From positions 1-24,095 of the IMG/VR virus record IMGVR_UViG_3300036832_000257: a DNA stretch of 24,095 nucleotides. One strand, written 5' to 3'. A model generated the notes under the pieces. It was not told the DNA's origin. It saw nothing but the letters and a program-made list of their open reading frames with translations, and ran no database searches. A program made the position numbers and the translations under genes. Positions 2,226 through 23,451 of the stretch are shown here, in pieces; position 1 is the stretch's first letter; each line of letters opens with the position of its first letter. Source of the stretch: a virus.

Positions 2226-2452
2226 TGGCTCCACTGACCAGCACTCAGCGCAACAAGCTCCCACCTTCGGCTTTCGTCTACCCGGGTCAGCGCAAGTACC
2301 CGGTGCCAACCAAGGCTCAAGCCAGGAAGGCAGGCATCTCCGAGTCCCAACGACTGGCCATCCATCGCAACGCTCTATCCCGCTCGGCCCAGCGCAACAC
2401 CTCCGGTTCCTACCGCACCGTTGCTGCCAAGGTGAATGCCCGCAAGCGTTGA
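2225..2452 (+). CDS. Small basic head-module protein
   Basis: This 75-residue basic protein is coupled to the protease by a one-base TGATG overlap. It contains LPPSAFVYPGQRKYPVPTKAQARKAG-like sequence (not quoted in full), a motif that occurs in small actinophage proteins beside the capsid gene and at the termini of some capsid-module proteins. The C-terminus is rich in Arg, Lys and Ser. Its function is not known; the location suggests a head or scaffold accessory. Its TGA stop is the first three bases of a TGATAG...CTATCA palindrome. Confidence 0.75.
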   Translation: MAPLTSTQRNKLPPSAFVYPGQRKYPVPTKAQARKAGISESQRLAIHRNALSRSAQRNTSGSYRTVAAKVNARKR

Positions 2453-2465
2453 TAGTTGACTATCA
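2450..2465. promoter_or_regulatory. 16-bp palindrome, copy 1 (TTGA core)
   Basis: TGATAGTTGACTATCA. It supplies the TGA stop of the preceding gene and opens the intergenic gap before the major capsid gene. It has 6-bp arms and a 4-base centre. Confidence 0.75.
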
Positions 2466-2618
2466 GCTTTGAGGGTGGTTACATGACCACCTAGCAAGCG
2501 GTGACGAGATCCCGCCCCGCTGATCCCTCAAGATCAGTGCGCGGCCTGCCCGAACTGCCCAACCCATTTGGGCTCAGAAGCAAAGGCAACTGGGTCCGCC
2601 GTCATCGGAGGCTGAACA
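2466..2618. other. Intergenic region upstream of capsid gene with two small dyads
   Basis: No gene is seen here. There are two dyads: GGTGGT-TACATG-ACCACC (2474-2491) and CTGATC-CCTCAA-GATCAG (2520-2537). Neither has a U-run, so they are not classical terminators. They could be processing sites, attenuators or operators upstream of the capsid gene. A GGAGG Shine-Dalgarno (2607-2611) precedes the capsid ATG. Confidence 0.5.
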
Positions 2619-3893
2619 ATGCCCCACGCTCTGGTCGAGAACGCTCTAGGCGAGCGTGATCGACTCCTCAACACCGTCCAAGTCCTCAAGAACGCGGCCC
2701 TGGACCGGGGCGCGGACCCGAGCTCAGCAGACCTCGAGCTCATGGAGAAGTCCTACAAGCGCATCGACGAGATCGACGCCATGATCAAGATCATCGGCGA
2801 GGATCGCTCGATGGATCAGGACACCCGAGACAAGCTCCTGGCTCCGACGCCCTCCACCCCCGATGGAGGGGTCAAGTACCGCACGGGCGGCGACATGGTG
2901 TGGGACTGCCTCCACGCCAACTTCGGCAGCCAGCACTCCCACGACGACGCCGACGCCAAGCGCCGCTGGGATGGAGTGATGAAGCGGGCAGCCCAGCACA
3001 TGGGCACCGACCCCGCCGCCACCACCCCCGTAGCCGGTGGCATCGGAGGCCTCTACGTCGTCCCTGTGGTCGGCCCGGTCATCGACCTCTATCCCTCGGG
3101 CCAGCCCTTTCTGTCGGGGATCGGTCGGAGGCCCGCGCCGAATGCGATGACCTTCGTGAGGCCTCGCATCGTCGACCCCGACTTCTACGACGGGGCAGGA
3201 CCGCAGACCCTCCAGAAGGCCGAGCTGACCTCCAAGAAGTTCGACATCAAGATCGACAACCTGACCCTCACCACGGTGGGTGGATACCTCAACGTATCCC
3301 AGCAGCTCATGTCCCTCATGCCCTCGGGCTGGGACATCATCGTGAGTCAGCTCCAGAAGCGCACGGCCTGGGCCGGGGAAGCCGCCGCCATCACCGAGCT
3401 GGCCAAGACGACCGCTCATATCCCCTTGGCTGCGGGAGCCGACAGCGCAGCGACCATCACTGCTCTGTTCGATGCCGCCAGCCTGGTCTTCACCAACACT
3501 CAAGAGCTGCCCACCTGGATCGCCTATGGGCCGTCGGGCTGGGCCATGCTGGGCTCACTGGTCGATGCTGCCGGGAGGCCTCTGTTCCCGTTCCTGGGTG
3601 CGACCAATGCCATGGGCCAGGCCTCACTGGGCGACTTCAACATGGGGCCTCTCGGCCTCCAGCAGATCGTCACCCCGGGCATCTCGACCACCGACATCTA
3701 CGTGGGCAACAGCAGCGCTCTGGAGGCCTACGTCTATTCCTTCCCGCTGCTCGAGGCCATCGAGCCCGCACTCCTCGGCCGTCAGGTGGCGGTGGCGGAG
3801 GCCATGAGCTTCTACCGGCCAACGACCAAGGAGGCCGGTCCCAGCGACACCCCTCCAGCCGAAGGCAACGGCGCGGTCCGCGTCGGCGTGTAG
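2619..3893 (+). CDS. Major capsid protein, HK97 fold
   Basis: This is the main shell subunit, 424 residues. The first ~75 residues form a charged helical segment resembling the HK97 delta (scaffold) domain that the upstream protease removes. A linker follows, then a capsid core including GGLYVVPVVGPVIDLYPSG, a segment typical of the N-arm/E-loop region of actinophage capsids, and a late P-domain segment with YVGNSSALEAYVYSFPLLEAIEP. The ATG at 2619 is preceded by GGAGG at suitable spacing. The C-terminus is a short disordered Pro/Gly-rich tail. The gene is flanked by hairpins on both sides, which suggests separate expression control as expected for the most abundant virion protein. Confidence 0.92.
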   Translation: MPHALVENALGERDRLLNTVQVLKNAALDRGADPSSADLELMEKSYKRIDEIDAMIKIIGEDRSMDQDTRDKLLAPTPSTPDGGVKYRTGGDMVWDCLHANFGSQHSHDDADAKRRWDGVMKRAAQHMGTDPAATTPVAGGIGGLYVVPVVGPVIDLYPSGQPFLSGIGRRPAPNAMTFVRPRIVDPDFYDGAGPQTLQKAELTSKKFDIKIDNLTLTTVGGYLNVSQQLMSLMPSGWDIIVSQLQKRTAWAGEAAAITELAKTTAHIPLAAGADSAATITALFDAASLVFTNTQELPTWIAYGPSGWAMLGSLVDAAGRPLFPFLGATNAMGQASLGDFNMGPLGLQQIVTPGISTTDIYVGNSSALEAYVYSFPLLEAIEPALLGRQVAVAEAMSFYRPTTKEAGPSDTPPAEGNGAVRVGV

Positions 3894-3900
3894 CAACGGG

Positions 3901-3936
3901 CTTGGGGCGTCGATCGCCACGGATCGACGCCTCAGG
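3901..3936 (+). terminator. Strong hairpin after major capsid gene
   Basis: GGCGTCGATC (3906-3915) pairs perfectly with GATCGACGCC (3922-3931) around a 6-base loop. The stem extends outward to 3901/3936 with G-U wobbles to about 15 bp. There is no U-tract, so this could be a terminator of the type common in GC-rich actinobacteria or an mRNA-stabilising 3' end. Confidence 0.65.
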
Positions 3937-3946
3937 CCTCAACCAT

Positions 3947-3962
3947 TGATAGTCAACTATCA
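3947..3962. promoter_or_regulatory. 16-bp palindrome, copy 2 (TCAA core)
   Basis: TGATAGTCAACTATCA lies between the capsid-gene hairpin and the AGGAG Shine-Dalgarno of the next gene, ending 12 bases before its ATG. Confidence 0.75.
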
Positions 3963-3974
3963 AGGAGTAGGTGA

Positions 3975-4421
3975 ATGAGCGACATGATGGGCAGACTGCG
4001 AGTCGCAGCCAGGTACTACGACGAGAGCTATCCGCCCGACCTCTATGACCCGACCGAGCTGCAACCCTCCATCGCGTCGATCGCCCCGACCTCGATCGTG
4101 GTCGCCACCCCCACCACGGTCACTGTCACCGGCACCAATTTTGATGCCTCCCGGTCGATCGTATGGGTCGATGGCGTCGCCCAAGCCACCACCTACATCA
4201 GCGCGACCAGCGTGAGCTATCAAGCCGAAGGCGACCAAGTAGGCAGTCAGACCGTCGTCGTCCACAACGGCAGCCGAATCTCCAACCCGGTGGAGCTGAC
4301 CGTTACCGCCACGGCTGGCGAGCTCGAGACCGCAACCACCCCGCCGCCCGTCGATCCTCCGCCACCAGTCGAGCCTCCGCCGCCTGATCCTCCGCCCGTC
4401 GAGGAACCTCCACCGGCATGA
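3975..4421 (+). CDS. IPT/TIG Ig-like protein with proline-rich tail (candidate head decoration)
   Basis: This 148-residue protein has a ~35-residue head, then an Ig-like IPT/TIG domain at about residues 32-115 (IASIAPTSI start, VTVTGTNF core strand, SQTVVVHNG, and NPVELTVT closing strand). It ends in a Pro/Glu/Asp tail of repeated PPPVxPPPP units. Ig-like domains next to the capsid gene are commonly surface decorations of the head that bind weakly to host or environmental glycans. That role is inferred from position and fold only. It could also be a neck or fibre accessory. Its stop overlaps the next start (ATGA). Confidence 0.72.
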   Translation: MSDMMGRLRVAARYYDESYPPDLYDPTELQPSIASIAPTSIVVATPTTVTVTGTNFDASRSIVWVDGVAQATTYISATSVSYQAEGDQVGSQTVVVHNGSRISNPVELTVTATAGELETATTPPPVDPPPPVEPPPPDPPPVEEPPPA

Positions 4422-4762
4422 GCTACGCCACCACCGCCGATCTGGCCGACGCCCTCAACGTGGTGCAGGTCAGCACCGACATGGAGATCGTCCTCCAGGC
4501 CTGCCTGGATGCCGCCACCCTCGAGATCGACCACTTCTTGGAGGATTGCCTCCTCGTCAATCCTCTGACCACCGAAGTCTCAGCCCTCCTCAATCGGACC
4601 AACGTCAACCGGGCGGTGGAGTGGTACAAGGCTCCAGCCACCTACAACGGGGGCGTAGGCATGGCCGAGACCGGGACCATCAAGGCTCCAACGTCGGGCT
4701 TCGAGCGTCATTGGGCCGCTCTGATCCCTCTACGCACCGGCTCGCCCAGCGGGATCGCATGA
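4418..4762 (+). CDS. Head-tail connector (adaptor, gp6/gp15-like)
   Basis: This 114-residue, mostly helical protein begins MSYATTADLADAL, a start typical of phage connector proteins that cap the portal. The middle holds ACLDAATLEIDHFLE, matching the recurrent helix of that family. The position after the capsid gene and before the gp10-like gene fits the neck module. It overlaps both neighbours by four bases (ATGA). The fold is inferred from pattern; the precise connector class is less certain. Confidence 0.72.
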   Translation: MSYATTADLADALNVVQVSTDMEIVLQACLDAATLEIDHFLEDCLLVNPLTTEVSALLNRTNVNRAVEWYKAPATYNGGVGMAETGTIKAPTSGFERHWAALIPLRTGSPSGIA

Positions 4763-5133
4763 ACATCCTCGAGGCCAGAAGCAAGCTGGCTGCGGTGCTG
4801 GCCCCTGTCCTCGAGGGCGATCCCACCGTCCTCACCGATCTGGTCGACTCGATCACCCCTCCAGCCCTCATGATCAGTTGGGGCGAACCCTGGATGACCT
4901 TCCAGACCCCGTGCTTCAACAACGCTCAACTGGTGGTGACAGCGGTGGGTTCACGACTGGTCCCCGGCGCTGGTCAGGCTCAGGTTGAGGCCTTGGTCGA
5001 CTTCGTCATCACCCGAGTCCGCCTGGACAGCCCCAACTGGTCGCTGACCACGGTGAGCGGGATGAGGGTTTTCCCCATCGCTCAGACCAACTACCTGGCT
5101 TCCCGCATAACCCTCCAAGTGACGATCGACTGA
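4759..5133 (+). CDS. Neck protein, probably tail terminator or head closure
   Basis: The start is ATG 4759 in the ATGA overlap with the connector; a longer in-frame reading from 4546 would overlap that gene and is not supported. The 124-residue product has an N-terminal helix (NILEARSKLAAVLAPVL) followed by beta-rich sequence ending YLASRITLQVTID. That alternation of helix and strands, with a terminal strand, resembles tail terminator proteins that stop tube polymerisation. The assignment rests on size, order and pattern. Confidence 0.62.
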   Translation: MNILEARSKLAAVLAPVLEGDPTVLTDLVDSITPPALMISWGEPWMTFQTPCFNNAQLVVTAVGSRLVPGAGQAQVEALVDFVITRVRLDSPNWSLTTVSGMRVFPIAQTNYLASRITLQVTID

Positions 5134-5522
5134 TGGCCGACGAAGTCACCTCCAACCTCCCCCAGGTCCAGCGCGAGCTGGCCAACTGGACGGCTCAGGT
5201 CGGCCCGGTCATCGAAGACCACGCCCACTCCTTCGGCGAGGCCCTGAGGGCTCAGATCGCCGGACGGGTGCCGTACCTGACCGGCACCCTGTCCCGTTCG
5301 GTCGTCGAGCAGCCCGCCCCGGTCGGAGTGGCCGTGGGCATGGGCGAAGGCGTGCCCTACGCTCAATGGATCGAGTTCGGCGGTTCGAGGGGTCGGCCCT
5401 ATGTGAGCGAAGGCCGCTACGTGTACCCGACCGCGCTCGACGCCGTCGACGAGTTTGCCAAGATGGCCGAGGATGCGATCACCACCTCGATCAATACCTA
5501 CCCGTGGTCAAAGCCAACCTGA
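5133..5522 (+). CDS. HK97 gp10-like neck/tail-completion protein
   Basis: This 129-residue protein starts at an ATG sharing one base with the upstream stop (TGATG). Residues 30-58 (HSFGEALRAQIAGRVPYLTGTLSRS) and 75-90 (PYAQWIEFGGSRGRPY) match the gp10-like pattern, in which a helix and an R-x-x-P-x-x-T-G-x-L-x-x-S segment precede a Y-A-x-x-x-E-x-G motif. This family joins the connector to the tail in siphoviruses. Its TGA stop opens palindrome copy 3. Confidence 0.8.
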   Translation: MADEVTSNLPQVQRELANWTAQVGPVIEDHAHSFGEALRAQIAGRVPYLTGTLSRSVVEQPAPVGVAVGMGEGVPYAQWIEFGGSRGRPYVSEGRYVYPTALDAVDEFAKMAEDAITTSINTYPWSKPT

Positions 5523-5535
5523 TAGTCAACTATCA
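5520..5535. promoter_or_regulatory. 16-bp palindrome, copy 3 (TCAA core)
   Basis: TGATAGTCAACTATCA. The first three bases are the stop of the gp10-like gene. The palindrome ends 15 bases before the major tail gene ATG, just upstream of its TGGAGG Shine-Dalgarno. Confidence 0.75.
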
Positions 5536-5550
5536 ACTGGAGGATGAGTA

Positions 5551-6225
5551 ATGAGCGATACGATGGTTCAGCCCCTGGCAGCGGGCGATCCCACTCCGCC
5601 AGTGGGCACCCCCGTCATCCTCAATGACGGTTACGTTGAGGTCAACGGAGCGAACCTTCGTTGCTTTGGCCTCCATTTCGAGGTCAACCCAGAGAACAAG
5701 CCGGTCACAGTGACCACGTTCTGCGCCGAGACCGACTACCCGGCATTGATCAAATGGCACTTCGTGGCCAAGTTCGCTCAATCCTTCGCGCCCGGGGCAA
5801 CCGACGCCACCCTGCGGGCGGCCGTGGCTGCCTATACCGCCAGCCAGCAGGTGGCAGCCTTCAAAGTCCGGGCCTACGCCAGCCAGCCGGTGAGCGCCAC
5901 CAACCCGCAATTCTCGGGCTTCATGGTCCCTCAGCCCTACCGCTACATCGGAGGCGACGCGGGCACATTGAGCGAAGTCGACATCGACTGGATCATGACC
6001 GGGCCTCCATCGGTCGACACCGGAGCGGTGGCAGCCACTGGTGCGACCGCAGGGAGCCCCGGCTTCTTCACTCCTTCGGGGGCCAACCCTCCGGCCAACC
6101 TGGCAGCCCTCACCGGCATCACGGCCACGCCGGTCGCCGCCTGGGCCGTAGGCCAGTACGTCCGCACGGCCGACCAACTCGGCTCGCACTGGAGCGGTTC
6201 GGCCTGGGTCGCTGGCGTAGCCTGA
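5551..6225 (+). CDS. Major tail (tube) protein with C-terminal accessory domain
   Basis: This is the tail tube subunit, 224 residues. The N-terminal ~150 residues carry the tube domain (VEVNGANLRCFGLHFEVNPE, then a segment of alternating strands ending SEVDIDWIMTGPPS). Residues ~165-224 form a separate small domain with the pattern PGFFTPSGANPPANLAALTG and AWAVGQYV...HWSGSAWVAGVA, a repeated module on actinophage tail tube proteins thought to be surface exposed. A strong TGGAGG Shine-Dalgarno precedes ATG 5551. Its place directly before the chaperone genes and tape measure is canonical. Confidence 0.88.
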   Translation: MSDTMVQPLAAGDPTPPVGTPVILNDGYVEVNGANLRCFGLHFEVNPENKPVTVTTFCAETDYPALIKWHFVAKFAQSFAPGATDATLRAAVAAYTASQQVAAFKVRAYASQPVSATNPQFSGFMVPQPYRYIGGDAGTLSEVDIDWIMTGPPSVDTGAVAATGATAGSPGFFTPSGANPPANLAALTGITATPVAAWAVGQYVRTADQLGSHWSGSAWVAGVA

Positions 6226-6232
6226 TAGCGCC

Positions 6233-6535
6233 ATGACAACCGAACCCCCCGTGAGGATTGACGCCTCTGGACTACGCATGCGTCCCAACGACATGCGGCA
6301 GTTGACCAAGGCCACCGGCCGAACCCTCGAGCAGTTGCTGGCCTCGGAGGAGTCAGCCGACAAGTTCCAGGCCATGGCCTTCATCGAGCTCCGTCGGAGG
6401 CATCCAGATTACGACTCGGGGATGCTGTGGGAACTGGCCGGGGATACCGAAGTGGAGGTCAGCGAGGAAGCGGCGGACCCTACCGACAGAGAGCCGCCGA
6501 CAACATCGCTGCCCTCTGTCGTTTCTGGCGAATGA
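6233..6535 (+). CDS. Tail assembly chaperone, upstream (gpG-like) frame
   Basis: This 100-residue protein lies between the tail tube and tape measure genes, the canonical position of tail assembly chaperones. The N-terminus has MRPNDMRQLTKATGRTLEQLL and FQAMAFIELRRRHPDYD, which resembles actinophage chaperones. The C-terminus is low-complexity acidic. The gene probably supplies two products: this one, and a fusion made by -1 frameshifting into the frame that ends at 6633 (see next entry). The chaperone pair binds the tape measure protein during tail assembly. Confidence 0.82.
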   Translation: MTTEPPVRIDASGLRMRPNDMRQLTKATGRTLEQLLASEESADKFQAMAFIELRRRHPDYDSGMLWELAGDTEVEVSEEAADPTDREPPTTSLPSVVSGE

Positions 6536-6633
6536 CTCCAGACGAAATTTACGCCCTCGACGACGACACCCTCCTGGCCTTTGTCCGCTTGATGGAGCGA
6601 GAAGCAGCCGAGATCAAAGCAAGAAGTAGGTAG
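6478..6633 (+). CDS. Tail assembly chaperone, downstream (gpGT-like) frame reached by -1 frameshift
   Basis: The -1 frame encodes NIAALCRFWRMTPDEIYAL followed by a helical LLAFVRLMEREAAEIKA tail, which resembles the second chaperone frame of actinophages (an ALC-aromatic...TPxE-hydrophobic pattern). The similarity begins upstream of the only in-frame ATG (6532), so it is best explained as part of a fusion with the upstream gene. The exact slip site is uncertain. One candidate is the CCCT at 6478-6481, where a Pro-tRNA on CCT could re-pair with CCC; the GGGG at 6440-6443 is another. Alternatively ATG 6532, in an ATGA overlap with the first stop, could give a 33-residue separate protein. The start given here is the earliest plausible shift point favoured. 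Confidence 0.62.
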   Translation, partial: PYRQRAADNIAALCRFWRMTPDEIYALDDDTLLAFVRLMEREAAEIKARSR

Positions 6634-6635
6634 CG

Positions 6636-8843
6636 ATGGCCGGACCGACCATCCTGGTAACGATTGCGGGCACCGTCGCCGGGCTCGAGACCGCAGTCGC
6701 CAAGGTCACCTCAGGCGTCCAGTCCAGCGTCGGCAAGATTCACGACGCCTTCGGCGGGCTGCTCTCGACCCTCAACGCCACCGGGGTTCTCGGTCCCTTC
6801 GGGGCAGCCCTCGACGGCGTCGATCGAGGGTTGGCTGCCATCGCCGAACACGGCAAAGGCCTCAGCACCGTCGGCCTGGCCGTGGGTGGAGCAGTGGCCG
6901 GGATCGGGGCCGGGCTGCAATCTCTCGGCTCCAAGGAGCAGGCCTCCAAGCAGCAACTGCAAGCCGCCATTGAGGCCACGGGCAAGAGCTGGGACGACTA
7001 CAGCGACCAGATCGATGGAGCCATCAAGAAGCAGGAGCACTTCGGCAACTCCTCGGCCGACACCCAGCGAGCTCTCCAGATCCTGACCCAGGCCACGGGC
7101 GACCCGGCCAAAGCCCTCGAGTACCTGGGCACGGCCTCCGACCTGGCCGCGGCCAAGCACGAATCGCTGGATGCCGCCGCCTCCCAGTTGGGCAAGACCT
7201 ACAACGGGGCGACCCGAATGCTCAAGGAGTTCGGCCTGGAGGCTGCTCCCAAGGCAGCGTCGGCCAGCAAGGAGCTCGAAGCAGCCACCAAAGGGGTCAC
7301 CACCGCGGCCGACGCCGCCACCAAGGCTCACCAGCACCTCCAAGATGTCGAAGATTCCCTCAAGGGCAAGACGACTCTCACCGCCGCCGAACAGGTCAAA
7401 TTGCGGGATGCCCAACACGGGGTCGTTGACGCCGACGCCAAGGCCCAAGCCGCCCACGAGAAGCTCATCATCGCTCAGAAGAACTCCAAGGACGCCGCCC
7501 AGGGCCAGACCGACACCATGCAGGCCCTCAGCGACAAGCTCAAGGGCCAGGCCTCAGCCGCCGCCGACACCTTCGGAGGGCGACTCAATGCCCTGAAAGC
7601 CAAGATCGAGGACTCCACCGCTCAATTCGGGCAGAAGTACGGGCCAGCCATCACAGGCGTGGGCAGCGCCCTGGCCGGGGTATCGGCCACCCTCAAGATC
7701 ATGGAAGCCCTCCACGCCGCCGAAGCCGCTGGTTGGCTGGCCGACGCCGTCGCCGCTGGTGTCGCCGCCGTGGCCGAGAACCTCGCCCTCCTAGGCATCC
7801 CGATCCTCATCGCTGCCGTGGTGGCGGGAATCGTCTGGATGGTGACCCACTGGAACAAGGTCAAGGACGCCATCATGAACGTGTGGAACTGGATCAAGAA
7901 CAACTGGCCATTGCTCCTGCCAATCCTCCTGGGTCCGATCGGCATCGTGGTCGCCCTCGTCATCAAGAACTTCGCAACCATCAAGCAAGTCATCAAGGAC
8001 GTAATCGACTGGCTCTCGGGGGCCTGGAACGACATCTACGCTGCCCTCGAGCCCGTCGTGGCCGAGATCGTCGGCGTCTTTGAGTTCTTGGGCAAGACCC
8101 TCGCTGCCATCGGGTATGTCCTGTCCATTCCCTTTATCATTGCCTGGCAATTGATCTACTGGGGAGCGCAACAGGTAGCGAACCTCATCGTGACTGCCTG
8201 GAACTGGCTCATGGGAGTCCTCAAGGCCGTGGCCAACGCCCTGGCTGGACCGTTCCAAGCCGCCTTCAACGCCATACGAGCTGCGGCCGACGCTGTCATC
8301 AATTGGCTCTATGGCGTCTGGAACGGAATCATCAACTTCCTCAGCGGAGTAGCAGGGACCATCGGCCGGGTGCTGTCCGGTCCCTGGCATACCGCCAGCG
8401 ATGCCGCAGGCACAACCTCCGACACCATCAAGCGCATCTGGAACGAGCTCATCGGCTTCTTCGGTGGAGTGATCAATCAGTTGGGTCGCATGTTTGGCGG
8501 CATGTGGAACGGCATCACCGAGGCCTTCCGAGCCGCCATCAACGCCCTCATCGACATCTGGAACAGCCTCCACTTCCCCGGTATCGACATCGGCCCGGTC
8601 CACGTCGCCGGGGTGGGCGCACCTCACATCAACCACCTGGCCTCTGGAGGGATCGTCAACGTGCCCACCCTGGCCCTCATCGGTGAAGCCGGACCGGAGG
8701 CCGTCGTACCCCTCAACAAGGCCAACGGCTTCGGCCGCAGTGGTCCGGCTGTGGTCGTCCAGAACGCTCACTTCAACACCGAGCTGGACATTGAGGCCTT
8801 CATGCGCCGCGCCGCCTGGGTGGCACAGACTCAGAGGATTTGA
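6636..8843 (+). CDS. Tape measure protein
   Basis: At 735 residues this is the longest gene in the window. It sets tail length and is ejected with DNA. The N-terminal part is Ala-rich and helical, with a charged coiled coil around residues 200-310. Hydrophobic segments lie at about 382-403 (LLGIPILIAAVVAGIVWMV) and 424-443 (PLLLPILLGPIGIVVALVI), with others around 490-520. Trp-rich amphipathic repeats of the AWNxxxxxLxx type fill residues 450-660. The C-terminus has LASGGIVNVPTLALIGEAG then PEAVVPLNK, a very common tape measure ending. The tail length that 735 residues would give is roughly 110 nm by the usual 0.15 nm per residue rule. TGA TCG TGA tandem in-frame stops lead into palindrome copy 4. 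Confidence 0.93.
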   Translation: MAGPTILVTIAGTVAGLETAVAKVTSGVQSSVGKIHDAFGGLLSTLNATGVLGPFGAALDGVDRGLAAIAEHGKGLSTVGLAVGGAVAGIGAGLQSLGSKEQASKQQLQAAIEATGKSWDDYSDQIDGAIKKQEHFGNSSADTQRALQILTQATGDPAKALEYLGTASDLAAAKHESLDAAASQLGKTYNGATRMLKEFGLEAAPKAASASKELEAATKGVTTAADAATKAHQHLQDVEDSLKGKTTLTAAEQVKLRDAQHGVVDADAKAQAAHEKLIIAQKNSKDAAQGQTDTMQALSDKLKGQASAAADTFGGRLNALKAKIEDSTAQFGQKYGPAITGVGSALAGVSATLKIMEALHAAEAAGWLADAVAAGVAAVAENLALLGIPILIAAVVAGIVWMVTHWNKVKDAIMNVWNWIKNNWPLLLPILLGPIGIVVALVIKNFATIKQVIKDVIDWLSGAWNDIYAALEPVVAEIVGVFEFLGKTLAAIGYVLSIPFIIAWQLIYWGAQQVANLIVTAWNWLMGVLKAVANALAGPFQAAFNAIRAAADAVINWLYGVWNGIINFLSGVAGTIGRVLSGPWHTASDAAGTTSDTIKRIWNELIGFFGGVINQLGRMFGGMWNGITEAFRAAINALIDIWNSLHFPGIDIGPVHVAGVGAPHINHLASGGIVNVPTLALIGEAGPEAVVPLNKANGFGRSGPAVVVQNAHFNTELDIEAFMRRAAWVAQTQRI

Positions 8844-8846
8844 TCG

Positions 8847-8862
8847 TGATAGTTGACTATCA
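8847..8862. promoter_or_regulatory. 16-bp palindrome, copy 4 (TTGA core), abutting a start codon
   Basis: TGATAGTTGACTATCA ends at 8862 and the ATG of the next gene begins at 8863. Its TGA lies in frame, two codons after the tape measure stop. No Shine-Dalgarno lies between it and the ATG. Confidence 0.75.
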
Positions 8863-9768
8863 ATGACCACTTGCACCCGCCAGGCCTGGCTCGACCTCTA
8901 CGGCGACGGCACTGTCACCATCCAGTTGCAGAACGAAGCCCTCGGCTACTTCTGCTCATCCCTCGACCTCGGCTATCCGAGCCCTCGAGAGGTCACCTCC
9001 AACAACCCCGACCGCAACGGGATCAGCGACCGCACCAGGCTCCTGGGCGGTCGAGTGGTCACCGCCAACATCACCGCCCTGGTCGGAGCTGGAGCCCGCA
9101 TCGACGACGTGGCCGACAACTTCGCCCCTTTCATGGTGCCCGCCGCCCGACCAATCCTCCACTACATCCTGGATCGCCCCGGGGCAGTCGAGCGGATCAT
9201 GACCTTGAGGGCATCGGGCTATTCCTGGCCCATCGCCGGACCCTACCAGCGGGACATACAGCTCCAATGGATGGCAGCCGACCCGGTGGCCTACGACCCA
9301 GTCCTCCGAACAGCCATAGCCTGGTCGGGCTCGACTACTCCACCCGGGCGCACCTACAACCTGACCTTCCCTCGAACCTACCCGGCCGGATCGGGAGCGG
9401 CCATGACGGCCATATTGAACAACGCGGGCGACCTGACCGCTTGGCCCCTCATCCGCATCTATGGGCCGATCACCGCTCCACGCCTCAACCTCCAGTACCA
9501 GCCCAACGGCATCAGCTACACGCTGGGCTTCAACACCAGCTTTGTGCTGAGCACCAATGAATGGGTCGACATCGACTGCGCTGCCCACACCATCAACAAA
9601 ATGAGCGATCCCAACCAATCGGTCATTTCATCGGTCAACTGGGTCACCAGCTCGCGCTGGCCGAGCCTCCCTCCACTTCCGACCTCAATCCTCTTATCCC
9701 TCTACGGAACGTCGACCACCACGTCCTCCCAGGCCGTGGTCACCTGGCACGACGGCTACCTGACGTGA
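8863..9768 (+). CDS. Minor tail protein (distal tail/Dit-like)
   Basis: This 301-residue protein directly follows the tape measure gene, where the distal tail protein that starts the baseplate is encoded. It begins TTCTRQAWLDLYGDGTVTIQLQ and contains strand-rich sequence with a middle PGRTYNLTFPRTYP and a late WVDIDCAAHTI segment, patterns usual in actinophage first minor tail proteins. The start ATG 8863 is immediately preceded by palindrome copy 4. The nearest purine-rich stretch (AGAGGA, 8833-8838) is about 25 bases upstream, too far for a normal Shine-Dalgarno. The stop overlaps the next start (GTGA). Confidence 0.8.
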   Translation: MTTCTRQAWLDLYGDGTVTIQLQNEALGYFCSSLDLGYPSPREVTSNNPDRNGISDRTRLLGGRVVTANITALVGAGARIDDVADNFAPFMVPAARPILHYILDRPGAVERIMTLRASGYSWPIAGPYQRDIQLQWMAADPVAYDPVLRTAIAWSGSTTPPGRTYNLTFPRTYPAGSGAAMTAILNNAGDLTAWPLIRIYGPITAPRLNLQYQPNGISYTLGFNTSFVLSTNEWVDIDCAAHTINKMSDPNQSVISSVNWVTSSRWPSLPPLPTSILLSLYGTSTTTSSQAVVTWHDGYLT

Positions 9769-11294: not shown

Positions 11295-11296
11295 CG

Positions 11297-14181: not shown

Positions 14182-14190
14182 ATGGGGACC

Positions 14191-14379: not shown

Positions 14380-14567
14380 ACTTCGACCCGTGTGATGCCT
14401 ACATTATCGATGCCGAGGTTCGCAGGGATCGAGGGGTCGGCAGCATCGACCGCAAATCGATAGACGAAGTCATCGACGACATGTACCGCCCGACCACTCT
14501 GATCATGATCTTCCCTCCAGACGAGCGGGAACGACTGATTCGACTGCTCAACGGAGCAGTCGAGTGA
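14376..14567 (+). CDS. Hypothetical protein (63 aa)
   Basis: This acidic 63-residue early protein overlaps both neighbours (ATGA and GTGA) in a tightly coupled chain. It contains DAYIIDAEVRRDRGVGSIDR and a C-terminal FPPDERERLIRLLNG segment likely to be a helix after a strand. No family is recognised and no metal or catalytic motif is visible. Confidence 0.65.
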   Translation: MNFDPCDAYIIDAEVRRDRGVGSIDRKSIDEVIDDMYRPTTLIMIFPPDERERLIRLLNGAVE

Positions 14568-14845: not shown

Positions 14846-15282
14846 TCAAGATCAGGGTGCTGGGCATGCCCAGGCCGCAAGGCTCCATGCAGCTCCGCAA
14901 GCTGCCCAACGGCGGAGCCACCGGCACCTACCCGCCAGCGGTGTGGGACTGGAGGCACAAGGTCCAGCAAGCGGTAGCCGAAGCCATGCTCGACCACGAA
15001 CAGATCATGGGACCCCTCGAACTCAAACTCGGCTTCGACCTGCCCCGACCCTCCAACCACTGGCTACCGGCCAACTCCCGGCGCAGAGAGCCAGTCCTCC
15101 ATCCCAACGCTCCAGCCTGGCCGTCGGTCATGCCCGACCTCGACAAGCTCATTCGCTGCATCGGCGACGCCATCACCGATGCGGGCTTGTGGAAGGACGA
15201 CGCCCAGGTCTGCTCGATCATTGCCGCCAAGCGCTACGTCACCAACCAGCCCGGAGTCCTCATCACCATCACCGAACTGTGA
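14842..15282 (+). CDS. rusA: RusA-like Holliday junction resolvase
   Basis: This is a 146-residue endodeoxyribonuclease of the RusA family, which resolves branched recombination and replication DNA. Family landmarks include the N-terminal VLGMPRPQGSMQ, the catalytic-core PDLDKLIRCIGDAITDAG (D99, D101, D109) and LWKDDAQV (D119/D120), followed by the basic AAKRYV strand. These acidic residues match the known metal-binding aspartates of RusA by order and spacing. Length fits the family. It is the first clearly enzymatic gene of the early operon and overlaps the next start by GTGA. Confidence 0.9.
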   Translation: MIKIRVLGMPRPQGSMQLRKLPNGGATGTYPPAVWDWRHKVQQAVAEAMLDHEQIMGPLELKLGFDLPRPSNHWLPANSRRREPVLHPNAPAWPSVMPDLDKLIRCIGDAITDAGLWKDDAQVCSIIAAKRYVTNQPGVLITITEL

Positions 15283-15449
15283 AACCGTCAGATCACGTCA
15301 AAGCCGGGGAATGCCCCATGTGCCACGGCACCGGGCAGCGACCTGCTCTCACCCTCCAGATCACCAACCCAACCCTCGAAGACCGATTGGACATCTGCCC
15401 TCTATGCCACGGCTCCAAAGATTGGCCACCACCTGACAACCCAGCCTGA
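15279..15449 (+). CDS. Small zinc-knuckle protein with two CxxC motifs (56 aa)
   Basis: It starts at GTG 15279 in the GTGA overlap with the RusA stop; a longer in-frame reading from 14943 lies wholly inside the RusA gene and is rejected. The product has CPMCHGTG (~12-19) and CPLCHGS (~40-46), two DnaJ-like knuckles that together could form one four-cysteine zinc site. Its role is unknown; possibly protein or DNA binding. It resembles the CPTCGGTG protein at 1263-1451. Its TGA stop begins palindrome copy 7. Confidence 0.68.
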   Translation: MKPSDHVKAGECPMCHGTGQRPALTLQITNPTLEDRLDICPLCHGSKDWPPPDNPA

Positions 15450-15462
15450 TAGTCAACTATCA
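15447..15462. promoter_or_regulatory. 16-bp palindrome, copy 7 (TCAA core)
   Basis: TGATAGTCAACTATCA. It includes the preceding stop codon and ends 29 bases before the winged-helix gene start, with an AAAGGA Shine-Dalgarno between. This placement would suit autoregulation of that gene. Confidence 0.75.
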
Positions 15463-15491
15463 ACTACCACCACCAACAAAGGAACAACCAA

Positions 15492-16085
15492 ATGCCCGAA
15501 TACACCCACAACCAACTGCTCGTCCTCCATCACCTCAAGCGCTACGGACCGATCACCCGAGCACCGGGAACAAGCATCCTCCAGTCCATGAGCGCCGAGC
15601 TGGGCATGAAAGTCTCAGCCCTCACCTACCAGCTTCGCACCCTGGAAGCCAAGTGCCTGGTCCTGCGCACCTACGAACGACCGGCAACCCGCAAGTTCGG
15701 GGCAGGCGCAAGCAACAACCCATTGGTCAAGGTCGAGCTGGTCGATCCCAACATGAGCCTGCCCCCGATCCCTCAGGTCTACGTAGCCACCCCACCCGAT
15801 CGCCAGCGCAAGCCCACCCCTCTCGGCATCGTCATAGCCGAAGAGAACGAAGACCTCGAAGAGCGCATCGAACACAACGAGCCCACCGTCGAGGCCATCG
15901 TAGAAGCCCTCATCGACCGAGCCCTCGAACTCCAGAAGCAGGTCGACAAGCTCCAAGACGTGATCGCCGGGTTGAACGCCGAGAACACCCGATTGCGCCA
16001 GCCCAAGCCTCAAGCCCACGTCACCTCCCGTGTCCGTGACGTGCTGACCGCCGACCAGTGGGACACCCTCAGGAGAAAACCATGA
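15492..16085 (+). CDS. Winged-helix DNA-binding protein with coiled coil (candidate regulator)
   Basis: Residues ~5-62 look like a winged helix: NQLLVLHHLKRYGPIT, MSAELGMKVSALTYQLRTLEAKCLV and a wing LRTYERPATRKFG. The pattern resembles MarR/ArsR-type or phage replication-initiator wHTH domains. Residues ~110-165 are an acidic then leucine-rich coiled coil (VDKLQDVIAGLNAENTRLR), likely for dimerisation. It is 197 residues long and begins 29 bases after a palindrome copy. A dimeric wHTH is a reasonable candidate to bind the dispersed palindromes; this is inference only. The stop overlaps the next start by ATGA. Confidence 0.7.
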   Translation: MPEYTHNQLLVLHHLKRYGPITRAPGTSILQSMSAELGMKVSALTYQLRTLEAKCLVLRTYERPATRKFGAGASNNPLVKVELVDPNMSLPPIPQVYVATPPDRQRKPTPLGIVIAEENEDLEERIEHNEPTVEAIVEALIDRALELQKQVDKLQDVIAGLNAENTRLRQPKPQAHVTSRVRDVLTADQWDTLRRKP

Positions 16086-17579: not shown

Positions 17580-17814
17580 TCCCGAACAGCGCAAGCTCTA
17601 CTACGTCCGCACCCCTCACGGCATGCGCTGGGAGGGCGAGCCCAAACCGGGGCAGGCTCGATCCTTGATCATTCACAACTGCGACCCCGACACCTACAAG
17701 CAAACCCTCAAGGCCATAGCCGAACAGGGCATGTTCACCACCAACCGAGCGACACGCCGCAAGTCTCAGCGTGTCGGGGACAAGGCTCGCCGCAAGAAAG
17801 CTAGGGAACAATGA
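17572..17814 (+). CDS. Small basic protein (80 aa)
   Basis: This 80-residue protein overlaps both neighbours (8 bases upstream, ATGA downstream). The N-terminal half (KLYYVRTPHGMRWEGEPKPG) looks like a small beta hairpin module. The C-terminus is strongly basic (NRATRRKSQRVGDKARRKKARE), which suggests DNA or RNA contact. Its position just before the nuclease and SSB-like genes hints at a replication or recombination accessory role, but this is inference. Confidence 0.65.
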   Translation: MNDPEQRKLYYVRTPHGMRWEGEPKPGQARSLIIHNCDPDTYKQTLKAIAEQGMFTTNRATRRKSQRVGDKARRKKAREQ

Positions 17815-19202
17815 CCAAATCCATCCCCGTCAACAACCTGAGCGATCCGACCCGCCGTGACCAATGGGGTCGCTATCTGGTCGTCCCACCCATTGGCGGC
17901 AAGCCCATCGGCTACACACGGGTCACCACCGTGGCCAAGGTCCTCGACCCCGGTGGAGGCCTCATCCCCTGGAAGGCGACCATGACAGCGTGCGGGATGA
18001 TCCTGCGCCGGGGCCTGCGCTCCCAGTGGGAAAGCCTCATCGCCCAGTACGACGATCCCTGGTACGCCAGCGAGGCCACCAAGGAGGCCTGCAAGGCTCT
18101 GGTGGAGGAGTGCGCAGCGGTGGGCGGGGCCAACGACCGGGCCGAGATGGGCACCAGCCTCCATGACATCACGGCCATGGTCGATCGGGGCCGCATGCCG
18201 CAACACCTGACCCCGGAGACCGAGGCCGACATCGCCGCCTACGTCGAAGGCCTCCAAGCGGCCGGGATCAGCTTCGACCCGAGCCTCATCGAAGTGACCG
18301 TGGTCCTCGACGAGTGGCAGACCGCAGGCAAGTTCGACCGGGTGGCCCATGTCCCCGGCTTCGAGCTGCCCCTGGTAGCAGACCTCAAGACCGGGGCCAA
18401 TCTGGACTACTCCTGGCAGAGCTTCGCCGTCCAGTTGGCGGGCTACAGCCGGGGCAACGCCATCTACGAACAGGGACCAGCCCTCGACGGCACGGCTGAC
18501 AAACGCCACCCGATGATCCCCGTCGACCAGAACAACGGCCTCATCATGTGGCTCAACGCCGGGACCGGAACCCTCGAGCTCTATCTGGTCGACCTCGAGC
18601 GGGGGTGGCACGCCTTCAAGCAGTCCATGTGGACTCGAGGGTGGCGCAAGGAGGTGGTCAGCCAGCCCTACGGCAACGCTCAGCTCAAGCTGCCGACCGC
18701 CACCGAGCCCGATAGCCTCGTTCCCGTGCTGCAAGCCTCCATCGACGCCATCGAGGCAGCCAAGCCCAAGCGCGGTCGACCCAGGAAGACACCGAGCCCT
18801 CCAGCCGCCATCGAAGCAGCAGCCACCGAAGCGCCCAAAATGACCAAACCCGCCATAGTCCCCGAACCGGTGATAGTTGACTATCAAGCGGGGGAGCACT
18901 ATATCGACAAGGTGCGAGAATGGCTGCAAGACCGCATCAACCTCATCGGTGCCCACGACACCGCCAGGGCCGACCTGATCCGGTCGTGGCCTCCAGACAT
19001 GCCGACGTTGATGGGCTCGACCGCTCACACGCCGGACCAGCTCGCCGCCATCGAGAAGCTCCTCGTTGGCGTCGAGGCGAGGGCTCAACTCCCCTTCGGG
19101 GAACCCAAGCCCGAGCCGACAAACGAACAAATGGGGCGATTGCTCCAAATGTTCCCTCAATCAACCCTGATCACCAACAACGACAAGGAGCATCCAGCAT
19201 GA
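17811..19202 (+). CDS. PD-(D/E)XK exonuclease, RecB/Cas4-like
   Basis: This 463-residue protein has a nuclease core with the family motifs in order: LIEVTVVLDEW (~160-168), AGKFDRV (D176), LVADLKTG (D191, K193) and WQSFAVQLAGY (Q~208), matching motifs II, III and QxxxY of RecB/Cas4-like nucleases. The N-terminus GYTRVTTVAKVLDPGGGLIPW is typical of actinophage Cas4-like exonucleases. No four-cysteine iron-sulfur cluster is seen, so Cas4 proper is unlikely. Palindrome copy 8 lies in the coding sequence (residues 354-359, VIVDYQ) in a Pro/Ala-rich linker before a helical C-terminal domain. It likely processes DNA ends in recombination with the adjacent SSB-like protein. Confidence 0.85.
   Translation: MTKSIPVNNLSDPTRRDQWGRYLVVPPIGGKPIGYTRVTTVAKVLDPGGGLIPWKATMTACGMILRRGLRSQWESLIAQYDDPWYASEATKEACKALVEECAAVGGANDRAEMGTSLHDITAMVDRGRMPQHLTPETEADIAAYVEGLQAAGISFDPSLIEVTVVLDEWQTAGKFDRVAHVPGFELPLVADLKTGANLDYSWQSFAVQLAGYSRGNAIYEQGPALDGTADKRHPMIPVDQNNGLIMWLNAGTGTLELYLVDLERGWHAFKQSMWTRGWRKEVVSQPYGNAQLKLPTATEPDSLVPVLQASIDAIEAAKPKRGRPRKTPSPPAAIEAAATEAPKMTKPAIVPEPVIVDYQAGEHYIDKVREWLQDRINLIGAHDTARADLIRSWPPDMPTLMGSTAHTPDQLAAIEKLLVGVEARAQLPFGEPKPEPTNEQMGRLLQMFPQSTLITNNDKEHPA
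18871..18886. promoter_or_regulatory. 16-bp palindrome, copy 8 (TTGA core), inside exonuclease gene
   Basis: TGATAGTTGACTATCA is read in the frame as VIVDYQ, avoiding its own stop codons. It sits in the linker between nuclease and C-terminal domains. Confidence 0.72.
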
Positions 19203-19740: not shown

Positions 19741-21852
19741 TTGGACAACCCTCAACATACCCCACAGACCAAGACCGCAGCCGCCGCCTACTTCGTGGCA
19801 GGATGGCACCCGCTCGAGCTCCCAGCGGGAGCCAAGGCTCCACCCCCCGACGGCCGCACCGGCTACGAGGGTTCCGACATGACCAGAGAGCAGATCGAAG
19901 CCTCCGACTGGGGCGGCAACATCGGCCTGAGGGTTCCCCCCGATGTCATCGGCCTGGATGTCGACGCCTACAAGGGAGGGCTCGACACCCTGAACGCCCT
20001 CATCAACCAACTCGGCCCCCTGCCCTCAACCCGCATCTCCCACTCCGGCCGCAACGACGGCAGCGGGATCAGGTTCTACCGGGTGCCAATCCTCACCTGG
20101 GTCACCAGCCTGCCCGGTATCGAGATCATCCAGAGGGTTCACCGCTATGCCGCCGTATGGCCCTCCATGCACCCTGACGGGCGGCAGTACGGGTGGTGGG
20201 ACCAGGCTGAGGCTGGACCCCTGGAGGCCTCCGAAGTGCCGCTGGTGGAGGACCTGCCCGAGATGCCCTGGAGCTGGATCGGGGAACTCTCCCGAGCCAG
20301 CCAGGCCGACACCTCCAGCCGGTCGACGGCAGCCGACCGCATCGGGACCATGGCCTTCATCACCACTCACGACAGCGCTGAGGCCTCCAGCTACCTGTCC
20401 ACCATCCTCGGCCACTTCGTCGACCGCCACCAGCAGGGCTACTCGAGGCACGACACCATGCAGCACTGCCTCATATGGGCCATGGAGATGGCCCGGGCCA
20501 TGGTCATCGCCGCCCAGCCCGCCATCGACCAGTTGGGCCAGGAATGGGTAGCAGCCCTCCAGGGCGACCCCCGCCGCCAGGCCCTCCACGACGACCGCCG
20601 TGTCACCGAGTTCGAGGCCATGCTCCGACATGCCGTGGGCAAGGCCACGGCCAAGCCGCAAGCCGTGATCGACAAGCTCCATGACGACTATGCCGGGATC
20701 AAGATGAACCCCTCCAGCCCCCCAGTTGATAGTCAACTATCAGTCGATGATGCGCTCTCCTGGCTCACCCCGCTAAGCACTCAAAACACCGGACTGCGGA
20801 TCACGGCGGACCTCGGGCTCATGACCGACGGCCGTGGACTCCTCCACCTGGCTCGTTTCAACCTCCTGCACGGCGACTCGGGAGCGGGCAAATCCTTCAT
20901 GGAGGCCTTCATGGTGGCCGAGTGCATCAAGACACAAAGACGGGTGGCGGTATTCGACCTGGAAGACGGCCCGGAAGTATTGGGCCAACGCCTCATGCAG
21001 CTCGGCATCCCCTGGCCCCAACAGGAGGAATGGCTGCTGTTCTTTCATCCCGACGAAGCCACCACCCCAGCCCTCATGCGTGCCGTGGTCGAGCTCCTGA
21101 TCGAGCGCGATGTTTGCCATGCTTTCATCGACTCCATGGGTGAGGCCTTCGGCGTGGATGGGGTCGACGAGAACTCCGACTTTGAGGTCACGGCCTGGAT
21201 CACCCGGGTCGTGAGACCTCTGTGCAACGCCGGGATCGGGGTGACATCGCTCGATCACGTCACCAAGGCCGGGGACAACCTGCTCTACCCCTCAGGGTCC
21301 AAGCGCAAGCGGGCGGCGGTGACGGGGACCAACTTCCTCATGTACGCCACCGAGCCTTACTCGCTCGAAGGCGGCGGGCGAGCAACCCTCCGCTGCGCCA
21401 AGGATCGACACGGCCAGTACCGCCGAGGCGACGACGTGGCCGAGCTGACCATGCAACCCCTCGATCCCATATTCGGGCAAACCGCCATGGAGCTCGCCCC
21501 GGTCGTTTCGATCCCTCCACCGTCGAGACCAGACCTCTTGATCATCGCCGTGAACACCTGCCAGAAGTTCCCGGGGCAAACCCTCACCAAGACCCAGGTC
21601 ATCGCGGATGTGCGGACCACGGCCGGGACAACCCTCAAGTTTGCCGACAAGGCCATGGGCGAAGCCCTCGAGGCGGCTGCTCTCCGAGGCTTCCTGACCC
21701 CCGGCAAGGGCTACAACGGACACGACGGATACGCCTTCGCCCGACCGATTCCTCCTAACTCACCTGGGTTAATGACCCCTCCAGCCCAAATGCCATCCAG
21801 CGACCATCCAGCGGAATCATCCAGCGTCACCCAGCGAGAGGACGAAGTGTAA
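19741..21852 (+). CDS. Bifunctional PrimPol primase-polymerase / AAA+ helicase
   Basis: This 703-residue protein is the main replication enzyme seen. The N-terminal prim-pol domain (about residues 10-190) has the active-site acidic pair in IGLDVDAYKGG (D73, D75), SGRNDGSGIRFYRV (102-115) and RVHRYAAVWPSMHPDG (H134). A linker with palindrome copy 9 leads to a RepA/RecA-type helicase domain with Walker A GDSGAGKS (~378-385) and Walker B HAFIDS (~460-465). A C-terminal winged-helix-like part contains FPGQTLTKTQV. Start TTG 19741 is the only usable start (an in-frame stop lies at 19729-19731) and has no clear Shine-Dalgarno. No separate DNA polymerase is seen in the window. Confidence 0.9.
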   Translation: MDNPQHTPQTKTAAAAYFVAGWHPLELPAGAKAPPPDGRTGYEGSDMTREQIEASDWGGNIGLRVPPDVIGLDVDAYKGGLDTLNALINQLGPLPSTRISHSGRNDGSGIRFYRVPILTWVTSLPGIEIIQRVHRYAAVWPSMHPDGRQYGWWDQAEAGPLEASEVPLVEDLPEMPWSWIGELSRASQADTSSRSTAADRIGTMAFITTHDSAEASSYLSTILGHFVDRHQQGYSRHDTMQHCLIWAMEMARAMVIAAQPAIDQLGQEWVAALQGDPRRQALHDDRRVTEFEAMLRHAVGKATAKPQAVIDKLHDDYAGIKMNPSSPPVDSQLSVDDALSWLTPLSTQNTGLRITADLGLMTDGRGLLHLARFNLLHGDSGAGKSFMEAFMVAECIKTQRRVAVFDLEDGPEVLGQRLMQLGIPWPQQEEWLLFFHPDEATTPALMRAVVELLIERDVCHAFIDSMGEAFGVDGVDENSDFEVTAWITRVVRPLCNAGIGVTSLDHVTKAGDNLLYPSGSKRKRAAVTGTNFLMYATEPYSLEGGGRATLRCAKDRHGQYRRGDDVAELTMQPLDPIFGQTAMELAPVVSIPPPSRPDLLIIAVNTCQKFPGQTLTKTQVIADVRTTAGTTLKFADKAMGEALEAAALRGFLTPGKGYNGHDGYAFARPIPPNSPGLMTPPAQMPSSDHPAESSSVTQREDEV
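20727..20742. promoter_or_regulatory. 16-bp palindrome, copy 9 (TCAA core), inside PrimPol-helicase gene
   Basis: TGATAGTCAACTATCA is read in frame as VDSQLS, in the Ser/Pro-rich linker (SSPPVDSQLSVDD) between primase and helicase domains. Confidence 0.72.
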
Positions 21853-22036: not shown

Positions 22037-22702
22037 GTGCTCGCTGCCATTCGGAACGGACGCCTCACCGCTGCCTGGCAGATCGGTGACGACGACCCTC
22101 ACGGCACCTGCCCGCATTGCCTGGCCCCGGTCTTCCTCAAGCGGGGGATCGAGGTCGTGTGGCACTTCGCCCACTACGCCAACAGCACCTGCCCCTGGTC
22201 AGAGGAGTCCGACGAGCACGCCGGGGCCAAGATGACCCTGGCCCGGTTGTTCACCGATGAGGGCTACCGGGTCGAGCCTGAGGTCTCGGTGGGCTCGAGG
22301 AAGGTTGACCTGAGGGTCGAAGGCGGGACGCGCTGGTGCGCCGTCGAAGTCCAGCGCTCCAACATCCAGACCTCCACCATGTTCGAGCGGGAGCGGGCTC
22401 ATGCCGCCCATGGAGCCCTGGCCACCGTGTGGGTGTGGGTTGACCGCTCCGAGATTGGGCCGGACATGCGCTTCTGCTGGTATCGGGATTGGGTCAGCCT
22501 CAACCTGCTCGACCGGGGCAAGCCCGCCCTCGCCCTATTCCGCCATAGCGGCGACGGCCAGGTGGCGGCTTCCGAGCAAGTGGCCGCGACCCCTCAACTG
22601 GTCGTCTGCCGAGCTCGTGGCGGGCGCCCGGGCGTGCGCTTCGGCGTGGAGCTGGAGCGTTCTTCGAGCGCTGCCTGGCCGATCCCGCTGGATCAGTTCT
22701 GA
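22037..22702 (+). CDS. CoiA-like nuclease
   Basis: It starts at GTG 22037 with AAGGGAGGA just upstream. The 221-residue protein has CPHC (25-28) and HFAHYANSTC (43-52), the zinc-binding arrangement and HFAH motif of competence protein CoiA. A nuclease core follows: VEPEVSVGSRKVDLRV (E80/E82, D91) and WCAVEVQRS (E104, Q106), fitting a PD-(D/E)XK-type active site. In bacteria CoiA works in natural transformation; phage versions probably process recombination or replication DNA. Its place directly downstream of the iteron array and PrimPol-helicase supports a DNA-replication role here. The stop is coupled to the next gene by TGATG. Confidence 0.82.
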   Translation: MLAAIRNGRLTAAWQIGDDDPHGTCPHCLAPVFLKRGIEVVWHFAHYANSTCPWSEESDEHAGAKMTLARLFTDEGYRVEPEVSVGSRKVDLRVEGGTRWCAVEVQRSNIQTSTMFERERAHAAHGALATVWVWVDRSEIGPDMRFCWYRDWVSLNLLDRGKPALALFRHSGDGQVAASEQVAATPQLVVCRARGGRPGVRFGVELERSSSAAWPIPLDQF

Positions 22703-22893
22703 TGGGCAAGCGAAGCGGTGGCGACGAACCCTCCGTGTTCGACCCGCTGACCATCGCCCGGCAATGGGCCGTGGAGGCCTCCAGACCCGGCCGTCACAAG
22801 AACGCTCAGGTCGCCATGGCCTGGGCTCTCATCGCCATAGCCGAGCAGGTCCGAACCCTCATCGAAGTCACCGCTCCGCCCGATGACCACTGA
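22702..22893 (+). CDS. Hypothetical small helical protein (63 aa)
   Basis: This 63-residue protein starts at ATG 22702, sharing a base with the previous stop. It contains PLTIARQWAVEASRPGRHKN then a hydrophobic helix VAMAWALIAIAEQVRTLIEV, amphipathic rather than clearly transmembrane. No family is recognised. It overlaps the next gene by 11 bases. Confidence 0.66.
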   Translation: MGKRSGGDEPSVFDPLTIARQWAVEASRPGRHKNAQVAMAWALIAIAEQVRTLIEVTAPPDDH

Positions 22894-23344
22894 GCCCTCG
22901 ATCGAGGCATACTGGGTCGAGGCGAGCAGACTGGGCAGGCTGAGCGGTCACGTCGTGTGTCGTTGCCCCGACTGCGGTGAGCGCTGCCTGATGAGCTATC
23001 GCCCGCCGAGCCAGCCCTGGCCCCGCTGCCGGGTCTGCCTGCCGCCCTCGATCGAGATTCCCGTCCGATGGGGCCAGCCCCGCCAGGTCGTGAGGGCTCC
23101 AGCCGCTCGAGTCGTCCCGGTGAGCGATCCCGCTGCTGTCGTCCACAAGCGACCCGGGCAGCCCAGGACGGCTCGAGCCCTCAAGGCCGATGGCTGCGTG
23201 GTGGTGCGCTCAGCCGCCTCCGTGCCGCCAGGAGGGCCGGAAACCCCTCCGGGTGGGTTCCCGGAGGGCTCCGGCCCTCCAGCGGGCTCTACGGGCCTTG
23301 GAGGGATTACACGTCGCATCATCAAAACCAACGGCCCACCATGA
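22883..23344 (+). CDS. Zinc-ribbon protein with low-complexity tail (153 aa)
   Basis: ATG 22883 lies within the previous gene's 3' end. Residues ~24-52 hold CRCPDCGERC and a second CRVC, a four-cysteine zinc ribbon (C-x2-C ... C-x2-C). The rest is basic and Pro/Gly-rich. Residues ~117-133 are encoded within a very stable nested hairpin (23231-23280), which makes the true end of the coding function uncertain: the C-terminal third may be constrained by RNA structure rather than protein. Possibly a DNA-binding accessory; no family is recognised. Confidence 0.6.
   Translation: MTTEPSIEAYWVEASRLGRLSGHVVCRCPDCGERCLMSYRPPSQPWPRCRVCLPPSIEIPVRWGQPRQVVRAPAARVVPVSDPAAVVHKRPGQPRTARALKADGCVVVRSAASVPPGGPETPPGGFPEGSGPPAGSTGLGGITRRIIKTNGPP
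23231..23280 (+). terminator. Nested double-stem hairpin (19 bp)
   Basis: The outer stem GGAGGGCCGG (23231-23240) / CCGGCCCTCC (23271-23280) and the inner stem CCCTCCGGG (23245-23253) / CCCGGAGGG (23260-23268) are both perfect, with loop TGGGTT and a small internal loop. It probably terminates or strongly pauses the early operon, or marks a structured RNA. It lies inside the annotated coding frame. Confidence 0.6.
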
Positions 23345-23382
23345 GGGACGCTACCAAGTGGTAGAGGCCGAGCGCTTGCTTC

Positions 23383-23400
23383 GCGAAACATATGTTTCGC
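23383..23400. repeat. 18-bp perfect palindrome
   Basis: GCGAAACATATGTTTCGC has no mismatch. It is AT-rich at the centre and lies between convergent genes. Possible roles are an operator for a dimeric protein, a terminator stem or a recombination site. Confidence 0.65.
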
Positions 23401-23435
23401 CTACCCTCATGATAGACCGATGATCATTGGATCAT

Positions 23436-23451
23436 TGATAGTTGACTATCC
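23436..23451. promoter_or_regulatory. 16-bp palindrome, copy 10 (TTGA core, last base differs)
   Basis: TGATAGTTGACTATCC matches 15 of 16 bases of the other copies. It lies next to the dyad ATGATC...GATCAT and is the only copy not at a rightward gene boundary or inside a gene. Confidence 0.65.

Follow-up and report, generated by a model that had tools for sequence, protein, structure and literature searches.

Regularly spaced 16-bp palindromes in GC-rich phages and a candidate RHH protein partner

Introduction

What are ten copies of one 16-bp palindrome doing along 24 kb of phage DNA? The nearest phage precedent is the 17-bp repeat of the cluster O phages Corndog and Firecracker, present at more than 30 copies per genome, the function of which is unknown and for which dimer binding was predicted by the authors (PMC4351075). 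When these dispersed palindromes were described in 2015, it was without a function or a partner. Like the sites studied here they have invariant arms and a variable core, and they occur in phages with related portal and capsid proteins. They differ in their arms (TGTTCGG-N3-CCGAACA) and in their irregular spacing (CV 1.02), with copies crowded at one end. The 21-nt repeats of the T1-like phage TLS (PMC11447400) are also dispersed, intergenic and of unknown function but are direct, oriented, non-palindromic and located upstream of starts. The phages described below form a separate and broader group, in which one specific protein is a candidate partner, specificity varies naturally and spacing provides evidence.

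Results

The palindromes of the window

The window, the whole stretch of DNA analysed, is an entire IMG/VR record of 24,095 bases and a linear fragment. Its genes include those for a portal, a weak capsid match, an amidase, RusA and a primase-polymerase. No annotated phage resembling it was found by megablast, and the nearest portals, ~41% identical, are in mycobacteriophages including those of cluster O. An earlier note on this DNA listed ten copies of TGATAG-N4-CTATCA, and its coordinates, its count of nine copies with exact arms and its tally of cores (TTGA and TCAA four times each, TCGA and GCGT once) were all reproduced. The TTGA and TCAA cores are the same site on opposite strands, and the fuller motif is TGATAG-N-YR-N-CTATCA. 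The note's expectation that such a sequence would be rare by chance was borne out: 0.0003 exact copies are predicted from the composition of the window alone and, with up to two mismatches allowed, the ten copies found lie far above the mean of 0.27 in shuffles of the window. No extra copies appeared in the window at two mismatches, and those at three were at chance level.

Site 1 (2450–2465, TGATAGTTGACTATCA) gives the TGA of a small ORF (2225–2452) conserved in relatives and precedes the capsid gene, which is separated from ORF 3975–4421 by site 2 (3947–3962, TGATAGTCAACTATCA). Site 3 (5520–5535, TGATAGTCAACTATCA) gives the TGA of 5133–5522, and the homologue of this gene in the relative G001 (IMGVR_UViG_3300047160_001130; rc 17898–18299) likewise ends in a site (rc 18297). 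Site 4 (8847–8862, TGATAGTTGACTATCA) is directly past the tape measure gene (6636–8843), where it adds the in-frame stop that had been claimed; in G001 a site lies ~35 bp beyond the end of the homologue. Site 5 (12674–12689, TGATAGGCGTCTATCA) gives the TGA of 12329–12676, a junction at which G001 also has a site, and site 6 (14115–14130, TGATAGTCGACTATCA) is at the end of ORF 14001–14117. Site 7 (15447–15462, TGATAGTCAACTATCA) closes a small ORF after RusA and precedes a winged-helix gene (15492–16085). Of five stop codons previously ascribed to the palindromes, those at 5520, 12674 and 14115 match gene calls, that at 2450 ends the small conserved ORF and that at 15447 is plausible. The description of the copies as lying mostly at gene junctions needs correction for two: site 8 (18871–18886, TGATAGTTGACTATCA) is within an exonuclease-like gene (17811–19202, + strand), the homologue of a G001 protein matching phrog_466, and site 9 (20727–20742, TGATAGTCAACTATCA) is within the primase-polymerase/AAA gene (19741–21852, + strand). 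Site 10 (23436–23451, TGATAGTTGACTATCC), the copy with one terminal mismatch, is outside predicted genes.

Two further features were seen in the window. A CoiA-like nuclease gene (CoiA_N and CoiA_nuc) is at 22037–22702. A promoter-like TTGACA-18-TACCAT (14154–14183), 24 bp past site 6 in the space separating the lysis region from that of RusA, is the best sigma-70-like match in window 1–16000. A promoter function of the palindromes themselves was rejected; the two matches in window 1–16000 were not above shuffles and neither overlaps a site.

Distribution and variation

Relatives were found by pattern scans of viral contigs (IMG/VR), and the array phages are uncultured soil and sediment bacteriophages. 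Contigs with at least two copies are nearly all GC-rich (62–73%), the one exception being L086 (56% GC), whose cores are mostly non-YR; AT-rich contigs have a single copy each. The capsid of G001 is 71% identical to that of the window, and its 19 copies are identical, with core ACGT, whereas G004 (3300038441_000972) has 12 copies with varied cores. Thus, the arms are constant and the cores lineage-specific. The ACGT-core site contains AGACGTCT, which we take to be the MetJ met box and regard only as a lead. When sites were identified from their arms only, all 223 had a YR central dinucleotide; they come from ~25 GC-rich IMG/VR contigs, some of which were retrieved with YR-containing patterns that left their remaining sites free to vary; the ten sites of the window and those of G019 (3300036828_000346) were not picked by such patterns. 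C and G are favoured immediately outside the arms.

Close relatives shift together to new arm versions (TGACAG, TGATCG), and intermediate arm forms are found in G008 (3300036828_000227) and G015 (3300042827_000020). In G008 the uncompensated combination TGACAG..CTATCA occurs five times. G019, retrieved via a MoxR search blind to the sites, has ~20 copies of TGACAT-TYRA-ATGTCA, which is multi-copy in G019 only (IMG/VR), and no TGATAG sites. Terminase relatives of at least 47% identity have 31 sites in 164 kb and more distant ones have 1 in 518 kb. The sites are conserved in relatives and their number far exceeds that in shuffled sequence, so that neither of the two outcomes by which the earlier note would have been refuted was seen. 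About half of the close terminase relatives, mostly short fragments, are without a recognisable array, and a search of these for other palindromes yielded, apart from GC-rich words, no convincing excess over shuffles. A full-text literature search, with most subscription papers outside its reach, found no description of the motif.

A scan of 84,980 genomes for exact TGATAGACGTCTATCA gave single copies only, with no prophage array. It is single-copy in 34 bacterial genomes, about half of them Rhodobacteraceae, and often near promoters; these singletons look like cellular operators. Some adjoin similar imperfect copies (TGATTGACGYCTATCA). The bacterial copies of the same 16-mer would fit a reading in which the phages make use of a DNA-binding protein of the host and the array consists of its sites. 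We consider this improbable, given that the specificity changes as a set between phages, that the RHH gene described below is phage-encoded and that the GC-rich array phages have no known common host.

Placement, spacing and orientation

In 12 records with simple gene calls, 19 of 159 sites are deep in genes (farther than 50 nt into a predicted gene) compared with 115 expected, the pooled counts being slightly inflated by identical stretches that C28587 (3300028587_000031) and G004 have in common. The stop codon is given by 54 sites. Sites occur at a density of about one per 2 kb along the whole genome, and their mean spacing CV is 0.44. Sites placed uniformly gave 0.89 and sites put at random gene junctions 0.84; neither model reached 0.44 in simulation. 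The CV is 0.19 in C20016 (3300020016_000048) and 0.26 in C0376 (3300010376_000087), and the regularity is not significant individually in G008, G015 and G019. We have here evidence that the spacing itself is under selection.

Two of the sites inside genes also hold their place. In the primase-polymerase, alignment columns 339–345 take in the sites of the window, C37119_1742, G001, G008 and C28587, that of the window being in a different reading frame. In the exonuclease, those of the window, C0376, G001, C37119_1742 and G009/G015 (G009, 3300042825_000002) fall at columns 508–534, in more than one frame; the G019 exonuclease site is at a different position. That these two intragenic sites stay in position in homologues from several lineages, although the reading frame through them differs, indicates selection on the DNA. 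In G019 (10:1) and G008 (6:0), departures from symmetry follow the direction of transcription, and the cores of the window are unoriented (4:4). Asymmetric sites tend to one orientation per lineage, the altered arm is not the same in sister lineages, and stop-codon use could be behind part of the bias.

These data bear on a reading of the palindromes as RNA hairpins, an option given in the earlier note. In mRNA such hairpins at gene ends could be terminators or could serve processing or stability. Every palindrome does fold into a stem-loop (−5 to −11.5 kcal/mol) and many are at gene ends. However, a T-run is near only 1 of 150 sites, so that the GC-rich stem and T-run of an intrinsic terminator are not seen, no terminator-scan match falls at a site and there is no Rfam match. 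The invariant YR pair would fall in the loop, uncompensated arm changes recur, as in the five G008 copies, and sites are kept within coding regions. We regard the hairpin as the least probable of the readings considered.

A small RHH protein as candidate partner

A gene for a small ribbon-helix-helix (RHH) protein is present in 11 lineages: G001, C0376, C16117 (3300047160_016117), C36846_408, G004/C28587/C28812, C3675 (3300047160_003675), C13308 (= G021; 3300013308_000745), G008, C37070_6302, G015 and G019. The window fragment has none. In the relatives the gene sits in a module between the terminase and a divergent MoxR/VWA operon, and in 7 of the 11 lineages a site lies no more than ~130 bp upstream of it. 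The proteins are 53–90 aa long and have the strand–helix–helix core, the LP..H..L pattern and the kinship to known members expected of the RHH superfamily. Against the PDB, their profile matches SvtR (2kel, E 9.5e-9), ParG (2e-4) and omega (6e-4). Of 10 members, 8 match Pfam 56B_RHH and 7 match RHH_10, with weak E-values, and an AlphaFold model (mean pLDDT 72.7) matches CopG, Arc, ParG, MatP and AmrZ with probabilities of 0.3–1.0 and E above 0.05. No match was obtained by tblastn of the RHH protein against phages, nor was there an RHH match in Firecracker.

The strongest test of the pairing, and an unplanned one, is G019, in which the TGACAT array is accompanied by an RHH gene. N-[VI]-P is found in the RHH strand of both G008 and G019, which share TGAC arms; with n = 2 this is a lead only. 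In G007 (3300037392_000017) an RHH gene was not found despite the array and the neighbouring gene P27804, and the C20016/C11443 (3300011443_000089) group is too fragmentary for presence or absence to be judged. In our reading, the phage RHH protein very probably binds the palindromes.

Other candidates were rejected as partners: the winged-helix gene of the window (15492–16085) has no relatives in other site-bearing contigs, a HicA-like gene is missing from some of the lineages, an HTH_17-like protein was found in G001 and C0376 only, plus a weak match, and the AlphaFold model of P27804 is of moderate confidence, with no convincing PDB match. The HicA-like gene, with a conserved His, follows the RHH gene in about half of the lineages in a toxin–antitoxin-like arrangement (G001 2803–3257; also G004, C28587, C36846_408 and C37070_6302). 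Divergent from the RHH gene, at G001 4739–7630, is a pair encoding a MoxR/CobS-like ATPase and a VWA/CobT-like protein, with distant relatives in Gordonia phages that are annotated CobT-like.

The presence of ParG and omega among the RHH relatives raises the reading that the palindromes are partition or centromere-like sites for a centromere-binding protein of that style, keeping a plasmid-like prophage. This seems to us very improbable, with a ParA-type ATPase (PF13614) in 0 of 20 site-bearing records (either fragments or records whose completeness is unknown), sites that are genome-wide rather than clustered and tyrosine integrases in three lineages (G008, G009/G015 and G021). No integrase was seen in G001, C0376 or G019 (34–40 kb), and no serine resolvase in the site-bearing records searched.

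Discussion

Computation shows that the array exists, that it is regular, that its sites are conserved in position and change in concert from lineage to lineage, and that an RHH gene is present; RHH binding, autoregulation and a roadblock role are what we infer. The palindromes would be DNA sites for a dimeric RHH protein of the phage itself, the gene for which would lie outside this fragment. The two protein halves would read the two arms, and the YR step would allow the centre to deform. Autorepression through the site next to its gene is probable and, bound to the array, the protein most likely forms stoperator-like roadblocks that damp transcription genome-wide, either during lysogeny or ahead of the late phase. 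To this reading as a whole we assign a probability of roughly 0.48. The idea in the earlier note of dimer-bound sites, analogous to yet unlike cluster A stoperators, is supported and can be extended: the motif recurs in relatives, the sites of an array drift in specificity together, and the phages encode an RHH protein that accompanies them.

Cluster A and CA stoperators, which are bound by the immunity repressor of the prophage (PMC13313380, PMC4351075), are likewise dispersed at or between gene ends at about one per 2 kb; here, the sites occur throughout the genome, with 140 of 159 not deep inside genes. Support for the roadblock role comes from this placement at gene ends together with the coverage of both divergent operons, and from a density like that of cluster CA, in which a phage has 25 stoperator sites and genomes are 46.3–47.0 kb (PMC13313380, PMC5721134). 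It comes also from the integrases and from the oriented asymmetric departures in G019 and G008, each seen in some of the array lineages. Stoperators are, however, 13–14 bp, asymmetric and oriented, whereas the sites here are symmetric 16-bp palindromes with an RHH candidate partner. The symmetry and the unoriented cores of the window count against the roadblock reading, as do the G007 array and the window, each without an RHH gene found, the lack of an integrase in G001, C0376 and G019 and the lack of a TGATAGACGTCTATCA prophage in the 84,980 genomes. It is also not obvious that roadblocks need an even, fixed-pitch spacing.

A second reading is a genome organiser like MatP/matS of the enterobacteria, in which an RHH protein acts on a dispersed 13-bp motif (PMC3330122). 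Regularly spaced RHH dimers would bridge or fold the phage DNA, for compaction of replicated DNA, segregation or hand-over to packaging, with no direct control of transcription and with a specificity that would switch by lineage from TGATAG to TGACAG, TGATCG and TGACAT. The spacing CV, the retention of sites even within long genes, their symmetry and the predicted MatP fold of the RHH model speak for it. In both systems a short palindromic motif is repeated over a region and paired with an RHH protein, here a candidate found in relatives rather than in the window. But matS has 23 copies in 800 kb, and the motif found here occurs every ~2 kb in phage fragments of 24–40 kb. The matS consensus is GTGACRNYGTCAC (PMC6907758), different from the 16-bp motif of the phages. 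The phage proteins are much smaller than MatP and without its extra domains, the departures in some lineages are oriented, and a site directly ahead of the RHH gene resembles a repressor operator. The repressors MetJ, Arc, omega and ParG have the same fold but act at one operator region, not on a genome-wide array. We consider the organiser less likely, though a serious alternative, and slightly favour the stoperator-like role.

Either way this would be a system of control or folding across the whole genome, of a kind so far undescribed in phages. Should the pairing of RHH protein and sites be true, the role of genome-wide phage repeats becomes directly testable in vitro, and the system would be either an RHH-based silencing of the whole phage or, for the first time in a phage, an equivalent of the site systems that organise chromosomes.

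A second palindrome family, CGTTAGT-N4-ACTAACG, was observed in G007, where four copies (92, 959, 1481 and 2032) lie near the contig end.
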